Positions 4,668 to 14,551 of a DNA stretch of 64,000 nt are shown here, piece after piece. The notes beneath the pieces are model-generated. The model was not told the DNA's origin, did no database searches, and worked only from the letters and a program-made list of their open reading frames with translations. The stretch spans positions 1 through 64,000 of the forward strand of contig NZ_PCDP01000061.1 of the NCBI RefSeq assembly GCF_003240585.1, read 5' to 3'. The DNA is from Arminella tubonensis (GTDB taxonomy: Bacteria > Pseudomonadota > Alphaproteobacteria > Rhizobiales > Rhizobiaceae). How positions within the stretch are numbered: position 1 is the stretch's first letter; the number at the start of each line of letters is the position of its first letter. The position numbers were made by a program, and so were the translations under genes.

Positions 4668-4697
4668 GGTTCTAGGCGGAAAGCAGTTGCCTCTCGC

Positions 4698-4834
4698 CCA
4701 GGCACCCCCCTCTGTCGGCCGGGCCGACATCTCCCCCACAAGGGGGGAGATTAAGATGCCGAGGGCGCGGCAAACTCCAAATCTCCCCCCTTGTGGGGGA
4801 GATGTCAGCGAAGCTGACAGAGGGGGGCGCCTGG
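4698..4834. repeat. Rhizobial palindromic mosaic repeat, family 1 copy 1
   Basis: A 137-bp intergenic element with two nested palindromes. Its outer arms are CCAGGCACCCCCCTCTGTC and the near-complement GACAGAGGGGGGCGCCTGG; an inner pair is ATCTCCCCC-ACAAGG-GGGGAGAT. A second copy lies at 13664-13789. It sits between the convergent ends of the MBL-hydrolase and DUF1499 genes and resembles RIME/RPE-type rhizobial elements. It could fold as a transcript-end hairpin. Confidence 0.85.
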
Positions 4835-4860
4835 GTGCGAGGCGAAATGGAACACAGGCG

Positions 4861-5778
4861 TCACCCGCCGGAGATACCCATCAATTCTGCATCGAGCGCC
4901 TTCAGATAGGCCTCGGCGATGCCGGCGCTGAGCCCGAGGTCGTGGGGGCCGTAGCGGGAGGCGACGCGGATGTCGACCAGGGTGGTTTCGGCCTCTTCGC
5001 GCAGGCGGATAACGACGTCGAAGTGGAGGCCTAGAATTGTGGTGCGCTTCTCGCCCTGCAGCGTGACGTCGGAGTTCTGCTGGATCAGCGACGCCACTTC
5101 GTCCTCGACGGCGGGGCGCGGGGTGGGGATGGGCACGATATCGGGCGCGTCGCTGACACCGCTTTCGTCAGTCGCCCGTGGCTTCACCCGCTTCGCCGGC
5201 TTGGCCTCTGGTTCATCATTGGCGGCGCCGTCGACCTTGGTGATCCTGATGCCGTTTTCCTTGGCCACCTCGCGTGCGGCCTCCAGCACGCGGTCCATCG
5301 CCCCTTCATAGCGGCGGCCTGTCAGCGCCGGGTAGGCCTCGGCCTGCATCTCCCGAACGCTGGCGCTGATGTTCTGGTCGTGCGGCAGCCAGATCTGCTC
5401 GGCATGCGGCGGCACGAGCCATGGCGGCGCATCGGCAAGATCGGTCGAGACGTCATAGATCGCCGGGCGCGTGACGTAGCGCTCCACTCCATAACCGACG
5501 AGCGCCAGCGGCAGTGCCGCATAGACCAGCGCCTTGAAGGCCGAAACGCCGCCCTCGGCGCCGCGCTGCCACAGTTGCATGAGGCCCGCTAGCGCGAGCA
5601 ATACGGCCAGCGCGGCGACAACTGCCGATATCAGCAAGAACAGCACGAAATAGGGCGTTTCAAGCGGGCCGAACCGATGGCCGAGCAGCACCACGATACA
5701 CAGGACCAGCGCGAAAGCCGCAACCAGGCGCGAGGCGCGCGCGGCATGCGAAACGGGACGATCGAAACGAATGGTCAT
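4861..5778 (-). CDS. DUF1499-domain membrane protein
   Basis: A 305-residue protein with a hydrophobic N-terminal third containing about three membrane helices (residues 15-35, 42-65, 80-98), followed by a soluble DUF1499-type domain. The domain is interrupted by a charged, proline-rich linker (about residues 180-225, NDEPEAKPAKRVKPRATD). The C-terminal part ending LHFDVVIRLREEAETTLVDIRVASRYGPHDLG is characteristic of DUF1499. The function of this family is not established. Start at 5778 is chosen since the upstream extension is basic and non-homologous in style. It stands alone. Confidence 0.75.
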   Translation of the reverse strand: MTIRFDRPVSHAARASRLVAAFALVLCIVVLLGHRFGPLETPYFVLFLLISAVVAALAVLLALAGLMQLWQRGAEGGVSAFKALVYAALPLALVGYGVERYVTRPAIYDVSTDLADAPPWLVPPHAEQIWLPHDQNISASVREMQAEAYPALTGRRYEGAMDRVLEAAREVAKENGIRITKVDGAANDEPEAKPAKRVKPRATDESGVSDAPDIVPIPTPRPAVEDEVASLIQQNSDVTLQGEKRTTILGLHFDVVIRLREEAETTLVDIRVASRYGPHDLGLSAGIAEAYLKALDAELMGISGG

Positions 5779-6850: not shown

Positions 6851-9517
6851 TCAGAGGCGGGCCTTGATTGCCGCCTGTGCTGCGGCAAGCCTTGCGATCG
6901 GCACGCGGAACGGCGAGCACGAGACGTAGTCTAGGCCGATCTCCTCGCAGAAATGGATGGAGGCAGGGTCGCCGCCATGCTCGCCGCAGATGCCGAGCTT
7001 CATGTCGTTGCGGGTGCGCCGGCCGCGCTCGGTGGCGATGCGGATCAACTCCCCCACCCCGTCGAAATCCAGCGAGATGAAGGGGTCGTGCTCGATGATG
7101 CCCTTGCGCTGGTAGGTCGGAATGAAGGCGCTGGCATCGTCGCGCGACATGCCGAAGGTGGTCTGCGTCAGGTCGTTGGTGCCGAAGGAGAAGAATTCGG
7201 CAACTTCGGCAATGATGTGCGCCCGGAGTGCCGCCCGAGGTAGCTCTATCATGGTGCCGACGAGATAGTCGATCCGCATCCCGGTCTCTGCCATGACGGC
7301 ATCTCCCACCTCGTCGATGCGGGCCTTGACGTAGTCGAGCTCGGAGCGGAGGCCGACCAGAGGCACCATGATTTCGGGCACGACGGCAGCGCCGGTCTCG
7401 CGCGCCGCTTCGACTGCAGCCTCGAAGATGGCGCGGGCCTGCATTTCGACGATCTCCGGATATGAGATCGCCAGCCGGCAGCCGCGATGACCGAGCATGG
7501 GGTTGAATTCGTGGAGCGCATCGACGCGTTGGCGCAGGACCTGCGGCTCCATGTCCATGGCAACCGCCACTTCGGCAATTTCCTCGTCGGTCTTCGGAAG
7601 AAACTCGTGCAACGGCGGATCGAGCAGGCGGATGGTTACCGGCAGGCCATGCATGATCGCAAACAGGCCTGTGAAGTCGGATCGCTGCATCGGCAGAAGT
7701 TTCGTCAGGGCGGCACGCCGTCCTTCCTCGCCTTCGGCAAGGATCATCTCGCGCATGACGTGGATGCGGTCGCCTTCGAAGAACATGTGCTCGGTCCGAC
7801 AGAGGCCGATGCCCTCGGCGCCGAACGAGCGCGCGGCGCGAGCATCAGCGGGCGTGTCGGCATTGGTGCGCACGGCCATGCGGCGCGAGCGGTCGGCCCA
7901 TTCCATGATACGGCCGAAATCGCCCGACAGCTCCGGCTGGATCATCGGCACTTCGCCCTTCAGCACCTGCCCTGCGGAACCGTCGATGGTTATGATGTCG
8001 CCCTTCTTGAGGGTGACGCCGATGCCGATCAGGCGCTCGCCGCGCAGATCGATACGCATGGTTCCGGCGCCGACGACGCAGGGAATGCCCATGCCCCGGG
8101 CGACGACCGCCGCGTGGCTGGTCATGCCGCCTCTCGTCGTGAGGATGCCTTCGGCCGCGTGCATGCCGTGGATGTCTTCGGGACTGGTCTCGATGCGCAG
8201 GAGGATGACCTTGCGGCCTTCCTCATTGGCAACGACCGCCTCTTCGGCGGTGAAGACGATCTCGCCGGTCGCAGCGCCCGGCGATGCCGGCAGGCCCGAG
8301 CCGATGACCTCGCGGTAGACGCGCGGATCGATCGTCGGATGCAGCAGCTGGTCGAGCGTCGACGGCTCGATGCGCGAGACGGCCTCGTCCTCGGTGATCA
8401 GCTTTTCATCGACCATATCGACGGCGACCTTCATCGCCGCCTTGGTGGTGCGCTTGGCGGAGCGGGTCTGCAGCATCCACAGCTTGCCGCGCTCGATGGT
8501 GAATTCGAGATCCTGCATGTCGCGATAATGGCGCTCGAGCTCGGTGCAGATGCTGCGGAACTCGGCAAAGGCCTCCGGCATCAGCTTTTCCATCGATGGC
8601 CGCTCATAGCCGGAGGCGATGCGCGAAGCTTCGGTGATGCTTTGCGGCGTACGGATGCCGGCCACGACGTCCTCGCCCTGCGCATTGACCAGGAACTCGC
8701 CGTAGAGCTCCTTTTCGCCGGTCGATGGATTGCGGGTGAAAGCCACGCCGGTCGCGGATGTGTTGCCAAGATTGCCGAAGACCATCGCCTGGATATTGAC
8801 GGCCGTTCCCCAGGCTTCCGGAATATTGTGAAGGTGGCGATAGGTGACCGCACGCGGGTTTTGCCAGCTGGCGAAGACCGCGTGGACCGCGCCCCAGAGC
8901 TGGACTTCGCAGTCCTCAGGAAAACCATCGCCGATCTCGTCGGCGATGATGGCCTTGTAGAGCGCGACGATCCGCTGCCATTGCGCGGCGGACATATCGG
9001 TGTCGAACTCATAGCCGTGCCGCGCCTTCTCGTCCTCGAGGATTTCCTCGAAGATCTCGTTGTCGAGGCCCATGACCACGTCGGCATACATCTGGATAAA
9101 GCGGCGATAGCTGTCCCAGGCGAAGCGGGCATCGCCCGAATCCTCGGCAAGGGCCTTCACCGTCGCGTCGTTGAGGCCGAGGTTGAGGACGGTGTCCATC
9201 ATGCCCGGCATCGAGGCGCGAGCACCTGATCTGACCGAGACGAGCAGCGGGCGCACCGTATCGCCGAAGCGGCGGCCGGTTACTGCCTCCATCTCGCGCA
9301 TGCCCTGCATGACCTGCGATTTCAGCTCGGCGGGAAGGCTGCGCCCATTTTTGAAATAGAACGCGCAAGCGTCGCTGACGATCGTCAGGCCGGGAGGAAC
9401 GGGCAATCCAAGGCTGCACATTTCAGCGAGGTTGGCGCCCTTGCCGCCAAGACGCTCATGGTCTCCGGCCCGCCCCTCAGCGCGTCCGTCACCGAATGTG
9501 TAGATCCACTTCTTCAT
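6851..9517 (-). CDS. ppdK: Pyruvate, phosphate dikinase
   Basis: An 888-residue, full-length PPDK, which interconverts pyruvate + ATP + Pi and PEP + AMP + PPi. Three domains are visible: an N-terminal ATP-grasp domain beginning with GGKGANLAEMCSLGLPVPPG; the swivelling phosphohistidine domain with TTRGGMTSHAAVVARGMGIP, where the His near residue 468 is phosphorylated; and the C-terminal PEP/pyruvate TIM barrel with catalytic Cys in GICGEHGGDP. The start at 9517 (MKKWIYTFGDG) is supported by the GGGGGA preceding it. In rhizobia the enzyme acts in carbon metabolism around the PEP-pyruvate node. It stands alone, convergent with the lipoprotein gene. Confidence 0.95.
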   Translation of the reverse strand: MKKWIYTFGDGRAEGRAGDHERLGGKGANLAEMCSLGLPVPPGLTIVSDACAFYFKNGRSLPAELKSQVMQGMREMEAVTGRRFGDTVRPLLVSVRSGARASMPGMMDTVLNLGLNDATVKALAEDSGDARFAWDSYRRFIQMYADVVMGLDNEIFEEILEDEKARHGYEFDTDMSAAQWQRIVALYKAIIADEIGDGFPEDCEVQLWGAVHAVFASWQNPRAVTYRHLHNIPEAWGTAVNIQAMVFGNLGNTSATGVAFTRNPSTGEKELYGEFLVNAQGEDVVAGIRTPQSITEASRIASGYERPSMEKLMPEAFAEFRSICTELERHYRDMQDLEFTIERGKLWMLQTRSAKRTTKAAMKVAVDMVDEKLITEDEAVSRIEPSTLDQLLHPTIDPRVYREVIGSGLPASPGAATGEIVFTAEEAVVANEEGRKVILLRIETSPEDIHGMHAAEGILTTRGGMTSHAAVVARGMGIPCVVGAGTMRIDLRGERLIGIGVTLKKGDIITIDGSAGQVLKGEVPMIQPELSGDFGRIMEWADRSRRMAVRTNADTPADARAARSFGAEGIGLCRTEHMFFEGDRIHVMREMILAEGEEGRRAALTKLLPMQRSDFTGLFAIMHGLPVTIRLLDPPLHEFLPKTDEEIAEVAVAMDMEPQVLRQRVDALHEFNPMLGHRGCRLAISYPEIVEMQARAIFEAAVEAARETGAAVVPEIMVPLVGLRSELDYVKARIDEVGDAVMAETGMRIDYLVGTMIELPRAALRAHIIAEVAEFFSFGTNDLTQTTFGMSRDDASAFIPTYQRKGIIEHDPFISLDFDGVGELIRIATERGRRTRNDMKLGICGEHGGDPASIHFCEEIGLDYVSCSPFRVPIARLAAAQAAIKARL

Positions 9518-9888
9518 TTTCCCCCGCCCAACTCCCAGGGCTGAACCTAGATGATTGCGGGGCAAATGAAAATCGACAAATGCGGCGGAATGTTGCGCTG
9601 CACAATGAATTGTCCGGGGAACTTGCGTGCCTCGGACAATTTATCGACAAACGACCCGGTCCTACGGCTTGGGGGTAAAGCTTATCGGCGTCAGGATGAG
9701 GCCGGTGCGGAGCTTGGGAGGCGTGATCTGCGCACTGCCGTTCTTGTAGAAAACGGTGGTCCCGGTACTGTCTTGAGGCTGGCCTCGCCTCGCAAGACGT
9801 CATCAGGCTTTCAGGTTTGGTGTCTGACTACGGGAGGTACGATGACCTGTGGGATTTCAAATGCTGCGCATGGGGCTGGAGACATGCA

Positions 9889-9930
9889 TAAAAAAAGCTT
9901 TGCGGGATCGTGGCAACGATCCCGCAAAGC
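9889..9930 (-). terminator. Rho-independent terminator
   Basis: On the minus strand, TTTGCGGGATCGT and ACGATCCCGCAAA form a perfect 13-bp stem around a UGCC tetraloop, extended by GC pairs across a one-base bulge, followed by a run of seven T (the complement of 9889-9895). This is the strongest intrinsic terminator in the window. It lies about 260 bases past the smc stop, so it ends either an independent small RNA or a long smc tail. Confidence 0.85.
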
Positions 9931-10050
9931 CATTTCCGTCCGGCCAGGAAAAACCGGACGGGGGGTTGGAACAGGCCGCCGCATTGAAGGTCCACCAGCG
10001 ACGACCTTAACCCTACAGACACAACTCCGCCTCGGCAGGGCGAGGCTCCT
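9889..10050 (-). ncRNA. Candidate structured small RNA with four hairpins
   Basis: Between ppdK and smc the minus strand encodes four consecutive hairpins with no reading frame. In transcript order: GCCTCG/CGAGGC (10046-10029); a long arm GGGTT-AA-GGTCGTCGC closing on GCGGCGGCC...AACCC (10013-9963); CCGTCCGG/CCGGACGG (9961-9936) with loop UUUUUCCUGG; and a 13-bp intrinsic terminator stem (9928-9899) followed by seven U. The 5' end is not fixed; about 160-185 nt is likely. The segment UGCGGCGGC recalls the 3' part of 6S RNA, but the overall fold does not match the single long 6S hairpin. No confident promoter is visible. Confidence 0.55.
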
Positions 10051-10192
10051 TACGCTTGGGAAACAGTTTAGTGCAGATATTGTTCCGCGACATTACCCAT
10101 TTGGAGGTAAAACGGGCTATGGCGCCTTCGCGAAGCAGGAAATTCACGGCTTGGCGTTCACCAAATTGTGAAATGAAGCGTTGCTGCCCGGT

Positions 10193-13100
10193 TCAGGCGA
10201 GTTCGCGCAGGCGCTCGGCGGCCTGAAGGTCGACGGAGACCAGTTGCGAGACGCCCTGCTCCGACATCGTCACGCCGAACAGGCGATCCATGCGGGCCAT
10301 GGTGATCGGGTTGTGGGTGATGACGACGAAGCGGGTTTCGGTCGACGCCGCCATCTCGTCCATCAGGTTGCAATAGCGCTCGACGTTGTGGTCGTCGAGC
10401 GGTGCGTCGACTTCGTCGAGCACGCAGATCGGCGCCGGGTTGGTCAGGAACACGGCGAAGATCAGCGCCATCGCAGTCAGCGCCTGTTCGCCGCCTGACA
10501 GCAGCGTCATGGTCTGCGGCTTCTTGCCCGGCGGGCGGGCGAGGATCTCGAGGCCAGCCTCAAGTGGGTCGTCGGATTCGATCAGCTGCAGCTCCGCCGT
10601 ACCGCCGCCGAACAGGTGGGTGAAGAGCCGCTGGAACTGGACGTTGACAATATCGAAGGCTGCAATCAGCCGCTCGCGACCCTCGCGGTTCAGGCTCTGG
10701 ATCGCGCCGCGCAGCTTGCGGATGGCATCGATGATATCGTCGCGCTCCTTGATCAGCGCTGCGAGCCGATCGCTCAGTTCCTTGCTTTCCTCCTCGGCGC
10801 GCAGATTAACCGCGCCCAGTCGCTCGCGCTCGATCTTCAGCCGCTCGACGTCACGCTCGACCTCGCGCAGATCAGGGACATGCTGGTGCTCCTGTGTGCC
10901 GGCAAGCCGCAGCGCTTCATGCGGCGCGATATTGAGTGCTTCGCGGATGCGCAATTCGCTTTCGAGGCGCTTTTCGCGTGCTGACACCAGCCGCTCCTCG
11001 GCACGGCCGCGCTTCTCGCGGCTTTCGGCAAGCGCAGAGAGCGCAGTGACCGCATGGCGATCCGCTTCGCGCAGCACGGTTTCGGCGTTAGCCAGGCGAT
11101 CGGCCGCAAAACGGCGCGCATCCTCCATCTTTTGCAGTTCATTCATCAGCGCCCGGCGCTTGTCGTCGAATTCATCCGGCGCCAATTCGAGCTGTGCCGC
11201 CTCGTCGCGGGCTTCCTCCTCGCGGTCTCGCAGCGTCTGGATATGGTCTTCGGCGCTTTCGGCCCGCTGATGCCAGGTGTCCCGCTCCTGCCCTATCGCA
11301 AGAATGCGGCGCTTGCGCGCTTCGTTTTCGCGGTTGAGCCCCTCGTGGCGGGCGCGCGCTTCCGCGAGCGCACTGCGATCGGTGGCGACATCCAGTTGCT
11401 GGTCGCGCATCTTCGCCTCGATCGCGGAAAGATCCGGCGCGTCTTCGAGCTCGATACGGGCATTTTCGTCCTGGATCGACACTTCCTCGATCTGGGCCTG
11501 CAGCTGGCTGGCAGCCTCGGCGACCACAGCGCGCCTGCGGATCAGATCACCAGAGGCTCGCTCGGCGGCGGCCAGGGCCTCCCGTGCCTCGCCCAGATGG
11601 CGAGCGGAAAGCCGGCTCATGTCACGGGCGTCGGAAAGGCGTCCCTCGCCCGCGCGGATCGCATCGGCGGCGATCTGAAGTCGGTCTTCGGCCTCTGCGA
11701 GGATGTCGCGCGCAAGCTCGACTTCGGCCTGCAATTCGGCAAGACGGTTTTTCTGCGACAGGCGGAGGGCCGCAGCACTTGGCGCATCAGCTCCGGTCAC
11801 ATGGCCGTCCCAGCGGAATACCGCGCCCTCCCGCGTTACCAGCCGCTGGCCGGGCTTCAGGGCGGGCATCAGCCGCTCACCATCGGCTGCGCTGACGAGG
11901 CCGATCTGCTTGAGGCTGCGGGTCAAGGCTGCGGGTGCGCCGACATGCGAGATCAGCGGCACCGCGCCTTCGGGCAAGGCAGGATCATTGCCGCCGTCGC
12001 CGTTGCCGGCCCAATAGGCTGGCGCCTCGCTATTCAGCGGCGATTCGAGATCGTCGCCAAGTGCCGCGCCGAGCGCCGTCTCGAAGCCGCGATCGACGCG
12101 GAGTTCTTCAGCAACCGGGGAGAAGGCTCCAGAGGCCGCGCCGGATGCCAGCATGCGCGAGATGGTCCTCGCTTCAGTTTCGAGCTCGTTCAGCCGCGAC
12201 CGCGCCTGGTCGACCGGCGCCCGCGACAGGACCTCTGTCGCGCGCGCATCGGCGAGCACGGCTTCAGCAGCCTGAACCGCGGTTTCCGCATCGGCAACGG
12301 CAATCTCTGCCGCCTCCACCACGGCGCGCTTCTCGTCCGGGTCGGGAAGGCTCGCCATCTTTTCGTCGATGCCGCCAAGCTCATTGTTGGCGTCGACCAT
12401 CTGCCGCTCAAGCCGCATCTTTCGATCGGCGAGGTCTCGAATAGCGCGCTCGAGCGCGTTGCGGGCGGCTGCGGCCTCGGCGCGCTCGGCCGTCAGGCCC
12501 ATGAAAATGCGCTCGCTATCGGCAAGCTTCGCAGCCGCATCCTCGAAAACCTCGCGGGTTTCCTCGGCCAAGCGGCCGCTGTCGGCGAGGATCTCGGCGA
12601 TCTCACCTTCTTCGGCGTCGAGCTTCGCAAGGATTGCCGCGTTGTCGGCGACCATCCGCTGTTCGCGGCTGATGTCTTCCCCCAGTTGCGCCAGGCGGCG
12701 GGTGAGTTCGTCGCGACGACGAAGAATGCGGCTGACGTCCTCCTCCAGCTGCGACTTGGCGATCTGCAGCCGTTGGAGGCCGGCCGCGGCCTTTGCCTCT
12801 TCCTCGCGCAGTTCCGGCAGCTTCAGTCCGGCGATCCCCTGGGATTTGGCAGCCTCCATCTGCGCCTGCGCTTTTTCGGCGACGATGATGGTTGCCTGGT
12901 TGAGGGCGCTATCGGCCTCGCCCTCGGCCTCCTTCGCCTGCACCCAGCGAATGTGCAGCAGCATCGCCTCGCGGGCGCGGATATCGGCGGACAGCTGCTT
13001 GAAGCGGTTTGCCTGCCGCGCCTGCCGCTTCAGGCTTTCGATCTGGCTATCGAGCTGCGAGGTGACATCCTCCAGCCGCTCGAGATTGCCTTCCGCTGCC

Positions 13101-13654
13101 CTGAGCCGGAGCTCGGCTTCGTGACGACGGGAATGCAGGCCGGAAATGCCGGCGGCTTCTTCAAGCAGCTGGCGGCGCGCCTGGGGTTTAGCCTGGATCA
13201 GTTCGCCGATGCGGCCCTGGCCGACCATCGACGGCGAGCGCGCGCCGGTAGAGGCGTCGGCGAACAGCAGCTGCACGTCCTTGGCACGCGCCTCCTTGCC
13301 GTTGATGCGATAGAGCGATCCCTGCTCGCGCTCGATGCGGCGGGTAACCTGGATCTCGTCGCTGTCGTTGAAGGCGGCAGGTGCCGTGCGGTCGGCATTG
13401 TCGAGATAGAGCGCAACTTCGGCGGTATTGCGGGCCGGGCGATTGCCGGAGCCGGAGAAGATGACGTCATCCATGCCGGAGGCGCGCATGTTCTTGTAGG
13501 AATTCTCGCCCATGACCCAGCGCAGGGCCTCGACAAGGTTGGACTTGCCGCAGCCGTTCGGCCCGACGACGCCGGTCAGGCCGCGCTCGATGACGAATTC
13601 AGATGGTTCGACGAAAGACTTGAAACCGACAAGGCGCAGTTTGTTGAACTTCAT
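10193..13654 (-). CDS. smc: Chromosome segregation ATPase SMC
   Basis: A 1153-residue SMC protein, the core of the bacterial condensin that organises and segregates the chromosome with ScpA and ScpB. The N-terminal ATPase half has the Walker A motif GPNGCGKSN at residues 31-39. Long heptad coiled coils follow, interrupted by a hinge near residues 500-650, and the C-terminal half carries the ABC signature LLSGGEQ and Walker B ICVLDEVDAPLDD. Start at 13654 (MKFNKLRLVGFKSF) matches the family; the 16 codons upstream in frame come from the repeat element. It is followed on the minus strand by the candidate small RNA region. Confidence 0.96.
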   Translation of the reverse strand: MKFNKLRLVGFKSFVEPSEFVIERGLTGVVGPNGCGKSNLVEALRWVMGENSYKNMRASGMDDVIFSGSGNRPARNTAEVALYLDNADRTAPAAFNDSDEIQVTRRIEREQGSLYRINGKEARAKDVQLLFADASTGARSPSMVGQGRIGELIQAKPQARRQLLEEAAGISGLHSRRHEAELRLRAAEGNLERLEDVTSQLDSQIESLKRQARQANRFKQLSADIRAREAMLLHIRWVQAKEAEGEADSALNQATIIVAEKAQAQMEAAKSQGIAGLKLPELREEEAKAAAGLQRLQIAKSQLEEDVSRILRRRDELTRRLAQLGEDISREQRMVADNAAILAKLDAEEGEIAEILADSGRLAEETREVFEDAAAKLADSERIFMGLTAERAEAAAARNALERAIRDLADRKMRLERQMVDANNELGGIDEKMASLPDPDEKRAVVEAAEIAVADAETAVQAAEAVLADARATEVLSRAPVDQARSRLNELETEARTISRMLASGAASGAFSPVAEELRVDRGFETALGAALGDDLESPLNSEAPAYWAGNGDGGNDPALPEGAVPLISHVGAPAALTRSLKQIGLVSAADGERLMPALKPGQRLVTREGAVFRWDGHVTGADAPSAAALRLSQKNRLAELQAEVELARDILAEAEDRLQIAADAIRAGEGRLSDARDMSRLSARHLGEAREALAAAERASGDLIRRRAVVAEAASQLQAQIEEVSIQDENARIELEDAPDLSAIEAKMRDQQLDVATDRSALAEARARHEGLNRENEARKRRILAIGQERDTWHQRAESAEDHIQTLRDREEEARDEAAQLELAPDEFDDKRRALMNELQKMEDARRFAADRLANAETVLREADRHAVTALSALAESREKRGRAEERLVSAREKRLESELRIREALNIAPHEALRLAGTQEHQHVPDLREVERDVERLKIERERLGAVNLRAEEESKELSDRLAALIKERDDIIDAIRKLRGAIQSLNREGRERLIAAFDIVNVQFQRLFTHLFGGGTAELQLIESDDPLEAGLEILARPPGKKPQTMTLLSGGEQALTAMALIFAVFLTNPAPICVLDEVDAPLDDHNVERYCNLMDEMAASTETRFVVITHNPITMARMDRLFGVTMSEQGVSQLVSVDLQAAERLRELA

Positions 13655-13663
13655 GGGGCGAAA

Positions 13664-13789
13664 GACCCCCCTCTGTCGGCCGGGCCGACATCTCCCCCAC
13701 AAGGGGGGAGATCAATGTGAGGCGAGAGCTTGCTCCAGCTATCTCCCCCCTTGTGGGGGAGATGTCCCAACGGGACAGAGGGGGGTGTC
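13664..13789. repeat. Rhizobial palindromic mosaic repeat, family 1 copy 2
   Basis: This is the second copy of the element at 4698-4834, with the same CCCCCCTCTGTCGGCCGGG start and the inner ATCTCCCCC...GGGGGAGAT arms, closing with GACAGAGGGGGGTGTC. The loop region differs completely between copies while both arms are conserved, as expected for a structure-selected mosaic. It lies between the dsbA-like gene and smc, ending nine bases before the smc start codon, so it forms the smc leader. Confidence 0.85.
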
Positions 13790-13861
13790 TCTCGGCAAGC
13801 TAAATCGACAAAAACCAGCGCACGGTTTCTCCCGCTGCCCGCTCTCATGAAAGAGCGCGGG

Positions 13862-14551
13862 TCAGAGCATTCCGTCGATGATCGTCGACATGGCCTCAAC
13901 CGACATGTCCCCTGCGTAACGCTTCCCGTTGATCAGGAAGGTCGGCGTACCACTGACGCCAAATTCCTTGGAGCCGCGGTCGCGCACGGAATTGACATCA
14001 TCCACAAGTTTCTGGTTCGTCAAGCAGGCTTCGAAGCTCTCCTGTGTAAAACCGGCAAGTTTGGAGATCTGGAGCAGCGCACCGCGCACATCCTGGACGC
14101 GCGCCCAGTTTTCCTGCTGCTTGAGGAATGTTTCGAGCAGCGGAACCGACGGGCCGTTCGGCGCACAACGCACGAGCATGAATGCGGCATAGGCAGGAAG
14201 ATCCTGAGGATCGATCGGGAATTCGCGGATGATGAAATAGACCTTGCCGGTGTCGACATACTTGGTCTTGATCTGGTCGAAGGTGGTCGCGGCGAAATGG
14301 GCGCAATGCGGGCAGGTCGTCGACATGTATTCGACGATCTTGACCTTGGCGTTCGGATCGCCGAGCGCCATCTCCGGCAATGGGCCGGGCTTCAGAACAT
14401 CGGACATCTCGACCTCGCCGTCCGACTTCGGAACGTCACCCTCAGCCGCAAAGACTGTTCCGCTGGTCGAAGCAACCGCCGCGGCAAAGGCCGTCAGCGC
14501 AACGCCGCCAAGCAGGTGGCGTTTGGTTATCAGCATGTCGGATATCGGCAT
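13862..14551 (-). CDS. DsbA-family periplasmic thiol oxidoreductase
   Basis: A 229-residue exported thioredoxin-fold protein. A twin-basic-type/Sec-like signal (ITKRHLLGGVALTAFAAAVA) spans residues 8-36. The active site is STTCPHCAHF near residue 78, the CPHC form typical of DsbA-type oxidases. A DsbA-like helical insertion follows, then the cis-proline region FGVSGTPTFLINGKRY near residue 205. It probably introduces disulfides in the periplasm; whether it pairs with DsbB or acts as an isomerase is unknown. It lies upstream of smc in the same direction, separated by the repeat. Met-6 is an alternative start. Confidence 0.88.
   Translation of the reverse strand: MPISDMLITKRHLLGGVALTAFAAAVASTSGTVFAAEGDVPKSDGEVEMSDVLKPGPLPEMALGDPNAKVKIVEYMSTTCPHCAHFAATTFDQIKTKYVDTGKVYFIIREFPIDPQDLPAYAAFMLVRCAPNGPSVPLLETFLKQQENWARVQDVRGALLQISKLAGFTQESFEACLTNQKLVDDVNSVRDRGSKEFGVSGTPTFLINGKRYAGDMSVEAMSTIIDGML

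Follow-up and report, generated by a model that had tools for sequence, protein, structure and literature searches.

A candidate small RNA gene with a conserved two-hairpin core between smc and ppdK in a Rhizobiaceae genome

Does the gap between smc and ppdK contain a small RNA (sRNA) gene of its own, or does its structured sequence belong to one of the two flanking genes? The question is raised by the window, i.e. the whole stretch of 64,000 nucleotides analysed here, where smc (ORF 10193-13702, with a SMC_prok_B match) and ppdK (ORF 6851-9523, pyruvate, phosphate dikinase) are separated by a gap that harbors a candidate sRNA gene on the minus strand. The original prediction described this candidate as an independent RNA without open reading frame, starting at 10050 and built of four hairpins in series, the last of them an intrinsic terminator. 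The sequence comparison presented below suggests that the locus is probably a real, conserved sRNA gene candidate, with a smaller conserved part than was first proposed.

The locus, its predicted transcript and its fold

The features of the locus are given below. Two models were employed in the searches, R1, made from 11 cores, and R2, made from 20 diverse cores.

9889-9967, minus strand: conserved two-hairpin core (hairpins 3 and 4); R2 match of 84.9 bits, the window itself being among the 20 model sequences; covariation; found in 104 of 148 genomes of the genus
9936-9961, minus strand: hairpin 3, consensus stem CCGTCCGG/CCGGACGG, loop TTTTTCCTGG; double changes in 5 of 8 pairs; conserved TTCCTGG
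9960-9965, minus strand: six consecutive C after an A, the final two of them within the stem of hairpin 3; conserved as [AC]CCCCCC
9890-9931, minus strand: hairpin 4 and seven-T tract, intrinsic terminator; terminator scan; double changes in 9 of 13 pairs
9968-10060, minus strand: variable 5' domain, containing the earlier hairpins 1 and 2; unconserved, fold z of -1.3
10068-10075, minus strand: -10-like element TGCACTAA (commonest form in the genus TTGCATTAG); separated by 15 nt from the GGTRATG element in 84 of the 85 fitting loci
10091-10110, minus strand: palindrome TTACCTCCAAATGGGTAA, then TG, with the -35-like GGTAATG (10097-10091) as the right half of the palindrome; sequence comparison

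The predicted transcript would run on the minus strand from about 10060 to 9890, ca. 170 nt (175 nt by script count in the window), and its predicted length ranges from 164 to 318 nt across the 85 loci of the window's genus that show the promoter-like block pattern. A start near 10060 is more sensible than one at 10050, because the conserved promoter-like block sits just upstream. As originally stated, no ATG-initiated ORF lies within the predicted transcript in the window; ATG ORFs of up to 52 codons occur within that of some relatives, which may therefore encode a small protein there.

Read from 5' to 3' on the minus strand, the conserved part consists of the C-run, hairpin 3 (9961-9936, loop UUUUUCCUGG), the terminator hairpin (hairpin 4, 9931-9896) and seven T (9896-9890). 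The 78-nt core, 9968-9891, folds with -48.6 kcal/mol, compared with -22.5 +/- 3.0 in dinucleotide shuffles (z of -8.8, reached by 0 of 300). A terminator scan of 9000-11000 yielded two sites against 1.7 +/- 1.3 expected and is, on its own, not above chance, unlike the 16-pair stem with its T-run and their conservation, which are. The last hairpin and the seven U of the original prediction are confirmed.

The fate of the upstream half is different. Its 93 nt (10060-9968) fold no better than shuffles (z of -1.3, with 28 of 300 as good), and compared with the 101 other loci of the genus they gave no significant match, the best E value among the matches listed being 0.65. The pairing of GGUCGUCGC with GCGGCGGCC in an extended stem, which had been singled out in the original prediction, does occur within the minimum-energy fold, but the segment that holds it has neither a significant fold nor a significant match in other loci. 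That same fold wraps hairpins 1 and 2 in one extra stem instead of arranging them in series. Of the four hairpins only 3 and 4 stand, present and covarying; 1 and 2 are unsupported. The z values of the 5' domain in seven relatives span +0.5 to -6.0; some strains therefore have structured 5' parts, and different ones. The four-hairpin unit was accordingly dropped as a conserved structure, hairpins 1 and 2 having been found in no other genome compared.

Covariation and distribution of the core

A MAFFT alignment of 20 diverse cores, with 21 pairs and hence 420 cells, was used for the covariation test. Changes on both sides were found in 14 of the 21 pairs, and 98.6% of the 420 cells hold standard pairs. 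Any of five covariation measures, whose statistics are inflated by relatedness, was reached by 0 of 500 shuffles, and sliding the 3' partner left at most 49% paired. Taken singly, both hairpins pass four of the measures (0 of 500 shuffles), whereas the remaining one, which counts further pair types, was reached by 1 of 500 shuffles for hairpin 3 and by 211 of 500 for hairpin 4. The compensatory changes fall in separate lineages, for example the Agrobacterium counterpart of CCGTCCGG/CCGGACGG is CCATCCGG/CCGGATGG, and genus g97 has GCCTCGTGGAG/CTCCACGAGGC in place of GCTTTGCGGG/CCCGCAAAGC. RNAalifold, unprompted, returned the same two stems. Covariation of the stems, named beforehand as the test on which the prediction could fail, is thus present in hairpins 3 and 4 but not in hairpins 1 and 2. 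A conserved two-hairpin RNA structure, a property expected of an independent trans-acting sRNA gene, is observed.

Concerning the unpaired positions, the TTCCTGG loop and the [AC]CCCCCC run are found in 102 of the 102 loci of the window's genus that were compared, counts that lean to conserved cores since the loci were picked by a fuzzy core pattern. The C-run reads ACCCCACC or ACCCCTCC in Agrobacterium, and genus g97 (L045, L070) has retained the stems and lost the UUCCUG loop motif.

A DNA query spanning 10120-9889 gave matches in 104 of the 148 genomes of the window's genus, its own genome included, and outside that genome the matches listed all fall within the final 89 bases of the 232-base query. 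The R2 search gave the same count, 104 of 148. Among the matches listed in the genus there is one place per genome, leaving aside reverse-strand echoes of the same place; G375 shows two places. Of the 104 matching genomes 102 entered the comparison of loci, the absent ones being L240 and one other, and L240 has a model match of 55.9 bits between smc and ppdK that the core pattern had missed.

In the family, R1 found 25 of 394 genomes at E <= 0.01. The 15 strong places (E <= 5.7e-9) are distributed as 5 in the window's genus and 10 in g47, g18 (Agrobacterium), g100 and g97, and among these last ten smc is in reach in 9 and ppdK in 6. Ten weak R1 places (L046-L055) have neither gene alongside (0 of 10) and were dropped as non-homologs, as were L071-L073 and L084-L086 (0 of 6 next to smc), while L035 and L056-L060 are repeats of loci already counted. 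R2 found 19 of the 394 family genomes; with the three whose match is away from smc (L071-L073) set aside, 16 genomes in five genera remain. At the level of the order, R2 matched 8 of 297, of which five are known members and three are weak and away from smc. Since searches of more than 40 genomes used stricter filters, with 11 to 32 candidates scored per genome, misses in them may be false. A pattern scan of named genomes, which may omit records near the window's genome, yielded nine loci (five Agrobacterium, one Agrobacterium MAG, two Rhizobium rhizogenes and one 'Rhizobiales bacterium'), all nine behind smc.

The remaining 44 of the 148 genomes of the window's genus gave no match in the R2 search. 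In the 23 of these that were examined both smc and ppdK are present (23 of 23 for each), and in one genome lacking the element, G060, ppdK lies 2.3 kb from smc. By eye, 20 of the 23 show a gene starting MSG or MSD immediately behind smc (L120, L121, L123-L137, L139-L141), and the one protein of this type that was tested has a CNNM domain match. This patchy distribution, which includes genomes with a CNNM-domain gene behind smc, provides natural comparisons. Elsewhere, visual inspection of the first 420 nt or less behind smc at 27 loci of other genera revealed no element, and in S. meliloti Ak57, where the gap between smc and ppdK measures 197 bp, the best model match scores 14.5 bits, overlapping with the smc end. 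A match of 21.2 bits in a Shinella record, about 6 kb from smc, was taken as chance. A conserved alphaproteobacterial family, as had been suggested, is supported as far as conservation goes, but the element was found in scattered genera of a single family and matches no Rfam family.

As a side observation, G064, one of the 23 examined genomes without a match, carries a degenerate core look-alike of 27.2 bits about 350 bp behind smc (L119:2458-2534), perhaps a decaying or diverged copy.

The upstream block, the neighboring genes and competing readings

A promoter-like block is located at 10110-10068 on the minus strand, above the variable 5' domain. In the genus, 85 of 102 loci fit GG[TGA][AG]ATG - spacer - T[GT][CT][AT][TC]TA[GAT], and with 8 to 22 nt permitted the spacer measures 15 nt in 84 of them and 16 nt in one; between the -10-like element and the core lie 91 to 245 nt, depending on the genome within the genus. 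Variants such as GGATGATG, CAGATGATG and TTGAATTAG are displayed by the 13 non-fitting loci shown, out of 17. No sigma-70 consensus promoter was found at the locus. The first half of the block is often palindromic (TACCCCATTTGGGTGA, or TCACCCATTCGGGTGA in Agrobacterium), although some genomes have the palindrome in imperfect form or have lost it (L173, L176, L233). Outside the genus, inspection by eye showed that g47 (L037) and Agrobacterium keep the palindrome with a different -10 spacing, and that it is not seen in L044 (L043 was left out).

The string YACCCNNNNGGGTGA occurs 3 to 9 times in six of seven genomes and 0 times in the seventh, against 0 to 1 for the reversed control, overlapping strand pairs being counted twice. 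The idea that the operator palindrome is the sign of a wider regulon was discarded: in a comparison of 30 loci, out of 35 matches, nothing but the sRNA promoters came up in more than one genome. Above the palindrome, upstream of the core, an A-tract motif of the CCAAAAAA type is present in 100 of the 102 genus loci and missing in the window and L002; it is possibly an upstream promoter element.

How the core stands relative to its neighbors is informative for the competing readings. According to one, which we regard as unlikely, the element is merely an elaborate double-hairpin transcription terminator of smc with no RNA function of its own. It accounts for the strong intrinsic terminator at the end and for the constant orientation, since where smc is in reach the element lies downstream of it on the same strand (29 of 30 loci; 9 of 10 outside the genus, 9 of 9 in the named genomes, and 84 of 102 in the genus, at 180-1326 bp). 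It does not account for hairpin 3, which has no U-tract and yet has a conserved loop and a conserved preceding C-run, nor for a block of constant internal spacing standing between smc and the core. Moreover, in L014 and L031 smc is parted from the block by an insert of 1.2-1.3 kb that holds an ORF of ca. 220-250 codons on the opposite strand, and the block stays with the core; and the 27 loci of other genera, inspected by eye over at most 420 nt, show no such element behind smc. A related reading, to which we give still less weight, takes the RNA for a 3'-UTR-derived sRNA cut from the smc mRNA, the upstream block being no promoter. The position behind smc and the departure of the block from the sigma-70 consensus are in its favor, but the block has a constant internal spacing above a stretch that varies throughout, a pattern that a promoter would show rather than a processing site, and the inserts mentioned separate smc from the block in some genomes of the genus.

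On the opposite side of the gap, ppdK lies downstream of the element and in the same direction in 100 of the 102 genus loci compared, which is what a cis-acting ppdK leader would predict, i.e. an attenuator or riboswitch with a start at the conserved block and a conditional stop at hairpin 4. We consider this very improbable, given that the element and ppdK are separated by 1.5-1.8 kb in Agrobacterium, by 1.5 kb in g100 and by 2.2 kb in L002, that in g97 ppdK is found beyond smc and in the opposite direction, and that no Rfam riboswitch matches. The leader was therefore rejected, the element not being directly upstream of ppdK in all lineages (Agrobacterium, g97). In addition, an inverted repeat, TTGTGCAGCGCAACA, is located upstream of ppdK (window 9605-9591, minus strand), and similar repeats were seen by eye in that position in relatives with and without the sRNA, so ppdK may have a conserved operator of its own, which also speaks against the leader. 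With ppdK distant or beyond smc, and with inserts parting smc, the element is neither a ppdK attenuator nor simply an smc terminator. The best reading is an independent sRNA gene, as originally proposed, because the covarying core, the terminator and the promoter-like block remain linked to one another at loci that part them from smc or ppdK. In its fuller form, an independent trans-acting sRNA gene with its own promoter-like block and terminator, whose C-run and loop would pair with Shine-Dalgarno regions, this is the reading that we favor with moderate confidence.

Possible targets and related RNAs

For the favored trans-acting sRNA we infer transcription, Hfq binding and Shine-Dalgarno pairing as follows. 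Transcription would begin from the promoter-like block (10110-10068, minus strand) and end at the intrinsic terminator, with its U-tract at 9896-9890. The working part would be the 3' module, formed by the ACCCCCC C-run, hairpin 3 with its UUCCUG loop, and the terminator hairpin with the U-tail. The C-run and the pyrimidine loop would pair in trans with purine-rich Shine-Dalgarno regions, and this pairing would either block translation initiation or trigger decay. Hfq would probably sit on the U-tail, as suggested by the presence of that tail and by rhizobial sRNAs in general, as described in the accessible text of PMC7143759. It should be noted that the conserved parts outside the stems are precisely the C-run and the UUCCUG loop, which are complementary to G-rich and CAGGAA-type ribosome-binding sites.

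A rough duplex test was run on 49 long ORFs of the window, with starts chosen by script and some of the ORFs surely spurious, and in it the ppdK initiation region ranked second, with -21.1 kcal/mol for the C-run segment and -16.6 kcal/mol for the loop segment, and smc fifth, with -17.3. Within the final 20 nt of the ppdK leader a GGGGG stretch is present in 90 of the 100 genus genomes that carry the element and in 7 of the 22 that lack it, a contrast confounded by phylogeny because the two groups differ. Among five further element-bearing genomes only one has it in the ppdK leader (that of L002, and not Agrobacterium, g100 or two g97), and it is absent from the g47 ppdK leaders seen. Given this confounding and the missing G-run elsewhere, ppdK is a plausible target and a lead only, at most for the window's genus. 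A bolder picture can be drawn, of an unnamed rhizobial and agrobacterial sRNA family acting as a two-site anti-Shine-Dalgarno device (C-run plus UUCCUG), which in this genus would control ppdK directly, by way of the G-run in the ppdK ribosome-binding site, and smc possibly as well, thereby linking carbon metabolism to chromosome packing; we offer it as a long shot.

With regard to known families, the Rfam scan that had been proposed as a check matched none at the locus: in release 15 (4227 models) there was no match at the gathering score, the best sub-threshold hit (E of 0.53) being on the other strand, and no family was found in 11 related loci. A literature search found no paper naming the element, and a search of papers for sequence strings was equally empty. 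The accessible parts of the S. meliloti sRNA papers (PMC2245857, PMC2573895, PMC3927594) and of those on A. tumefaciens Hfq and VtlR (PMC4201532, PMC7486931) contain nothing bearing on it, and the available portion of PMC2873474, also on S. meliloti sRNAs, makes no mention bearing on it.

Judging from the descriptions in the available parts of PMC7143759 and PMC6234868, the nearest kinds are the rhizobial anti-Shine-Dalgarno sRNAs (alpha-r14/NfeR1, AbcR, MmgR; PMC7143759) and PmaR (PMC6234868), none of which fits in anatomy or place. In those parts alpha-r14 (NfeR1, Smr14C2 of Sinorhizobium meliloti) resembles the proposed RNA in being a trans-sRNA of rhizobia whose anti-Shine-Dalgarno motifs are unpaired, whose stems are hypervariable and whose promoter motif is conserved; it has three hairpins, each loop carrying the motif, and S. 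meliloti has six copies of it (PMC7143759). Our element differs in its two-hairpin core, its C-run with one UUCCUG loop, its one place per genome among the matches listed and its lack of an Rfam match. Membership in alpha-r14 was rejected, since in place of three motif-loop hairpins there are two hairpins, and a single pyrimidine loop, in the conserved core. The resemblance to AbcR1 and AbcR2 of rhizobia and Agrobacterium would be one of working only, through unpaired CU-rich anti-Shine-Dalgarno motifs, with Hfq binding described on the AbcR side; these have three stem-loops and tandem genes between SMc01226 and lsrB (PMC7143759, accessible text), whereas our element lies at a different place and has no Rfam match. 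PmaR of Agrobacterium tumefaciens has a C-rich single-stranded target-binding region, like the one proposed for our element. The available part of PMC6234868 describes PmaR as a single spoon-like stem ending in a C-rich loop; it is flanked by two hypothetical ORFs, and reports of it come from Agrobacterium and a single Rhizobium strain only. The present element is located behind smc and occurs in other genera too; identity with PmaR was rejected, as our element has two separate hairpins and the eight Agrobacterium or R. rhizogenes loci all have smc upstream.

A study of Mesorhizobium huakuii 7653R lists, in its accessible part, 40 sRNA candidates, 16 of them called novel, and some of these (MH_s7, MH_s10, MH_s12, MH_s15) are, like our element, intergenic and without Rfam match (PMC5596092). 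Several of them could be this locus as far as that part goes, the distances to the RNase P, tmRNA and FMN landmarks not having decided the matter, and our claim is therefore limited to the statement that no Rfam model matches and that no paper naming the element was found. Within that limit, the analysis adds a well-supported structured RNA, without match in the Rfam library searched, that is common to the window's genus and Agrobacterium. Its core is short, usually occurs once per genome and has a loop highly conserved in the genus, which makes it a ready test case.

Some minor observations concern the surrounding sequence. Between the terminator and ppdK, a perfect 9-bp inverted repeat, AATTGTCCG ... 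CGGACAATT, was seen by eye at window 9641-9608 (minus strand). In L267 (G045:C5:3454564-3455112) the ppdK frame has one in-frame TGA, with the match starting from query residue 21, and this ppdK is possibly broken or mis-assembled. Finally, LPPCGGDV-type strings occur in reading frames at window 4687-5034 and 13651-13899; these frames suggest a short dispersed intergenic repeat with one copy near the smc start.
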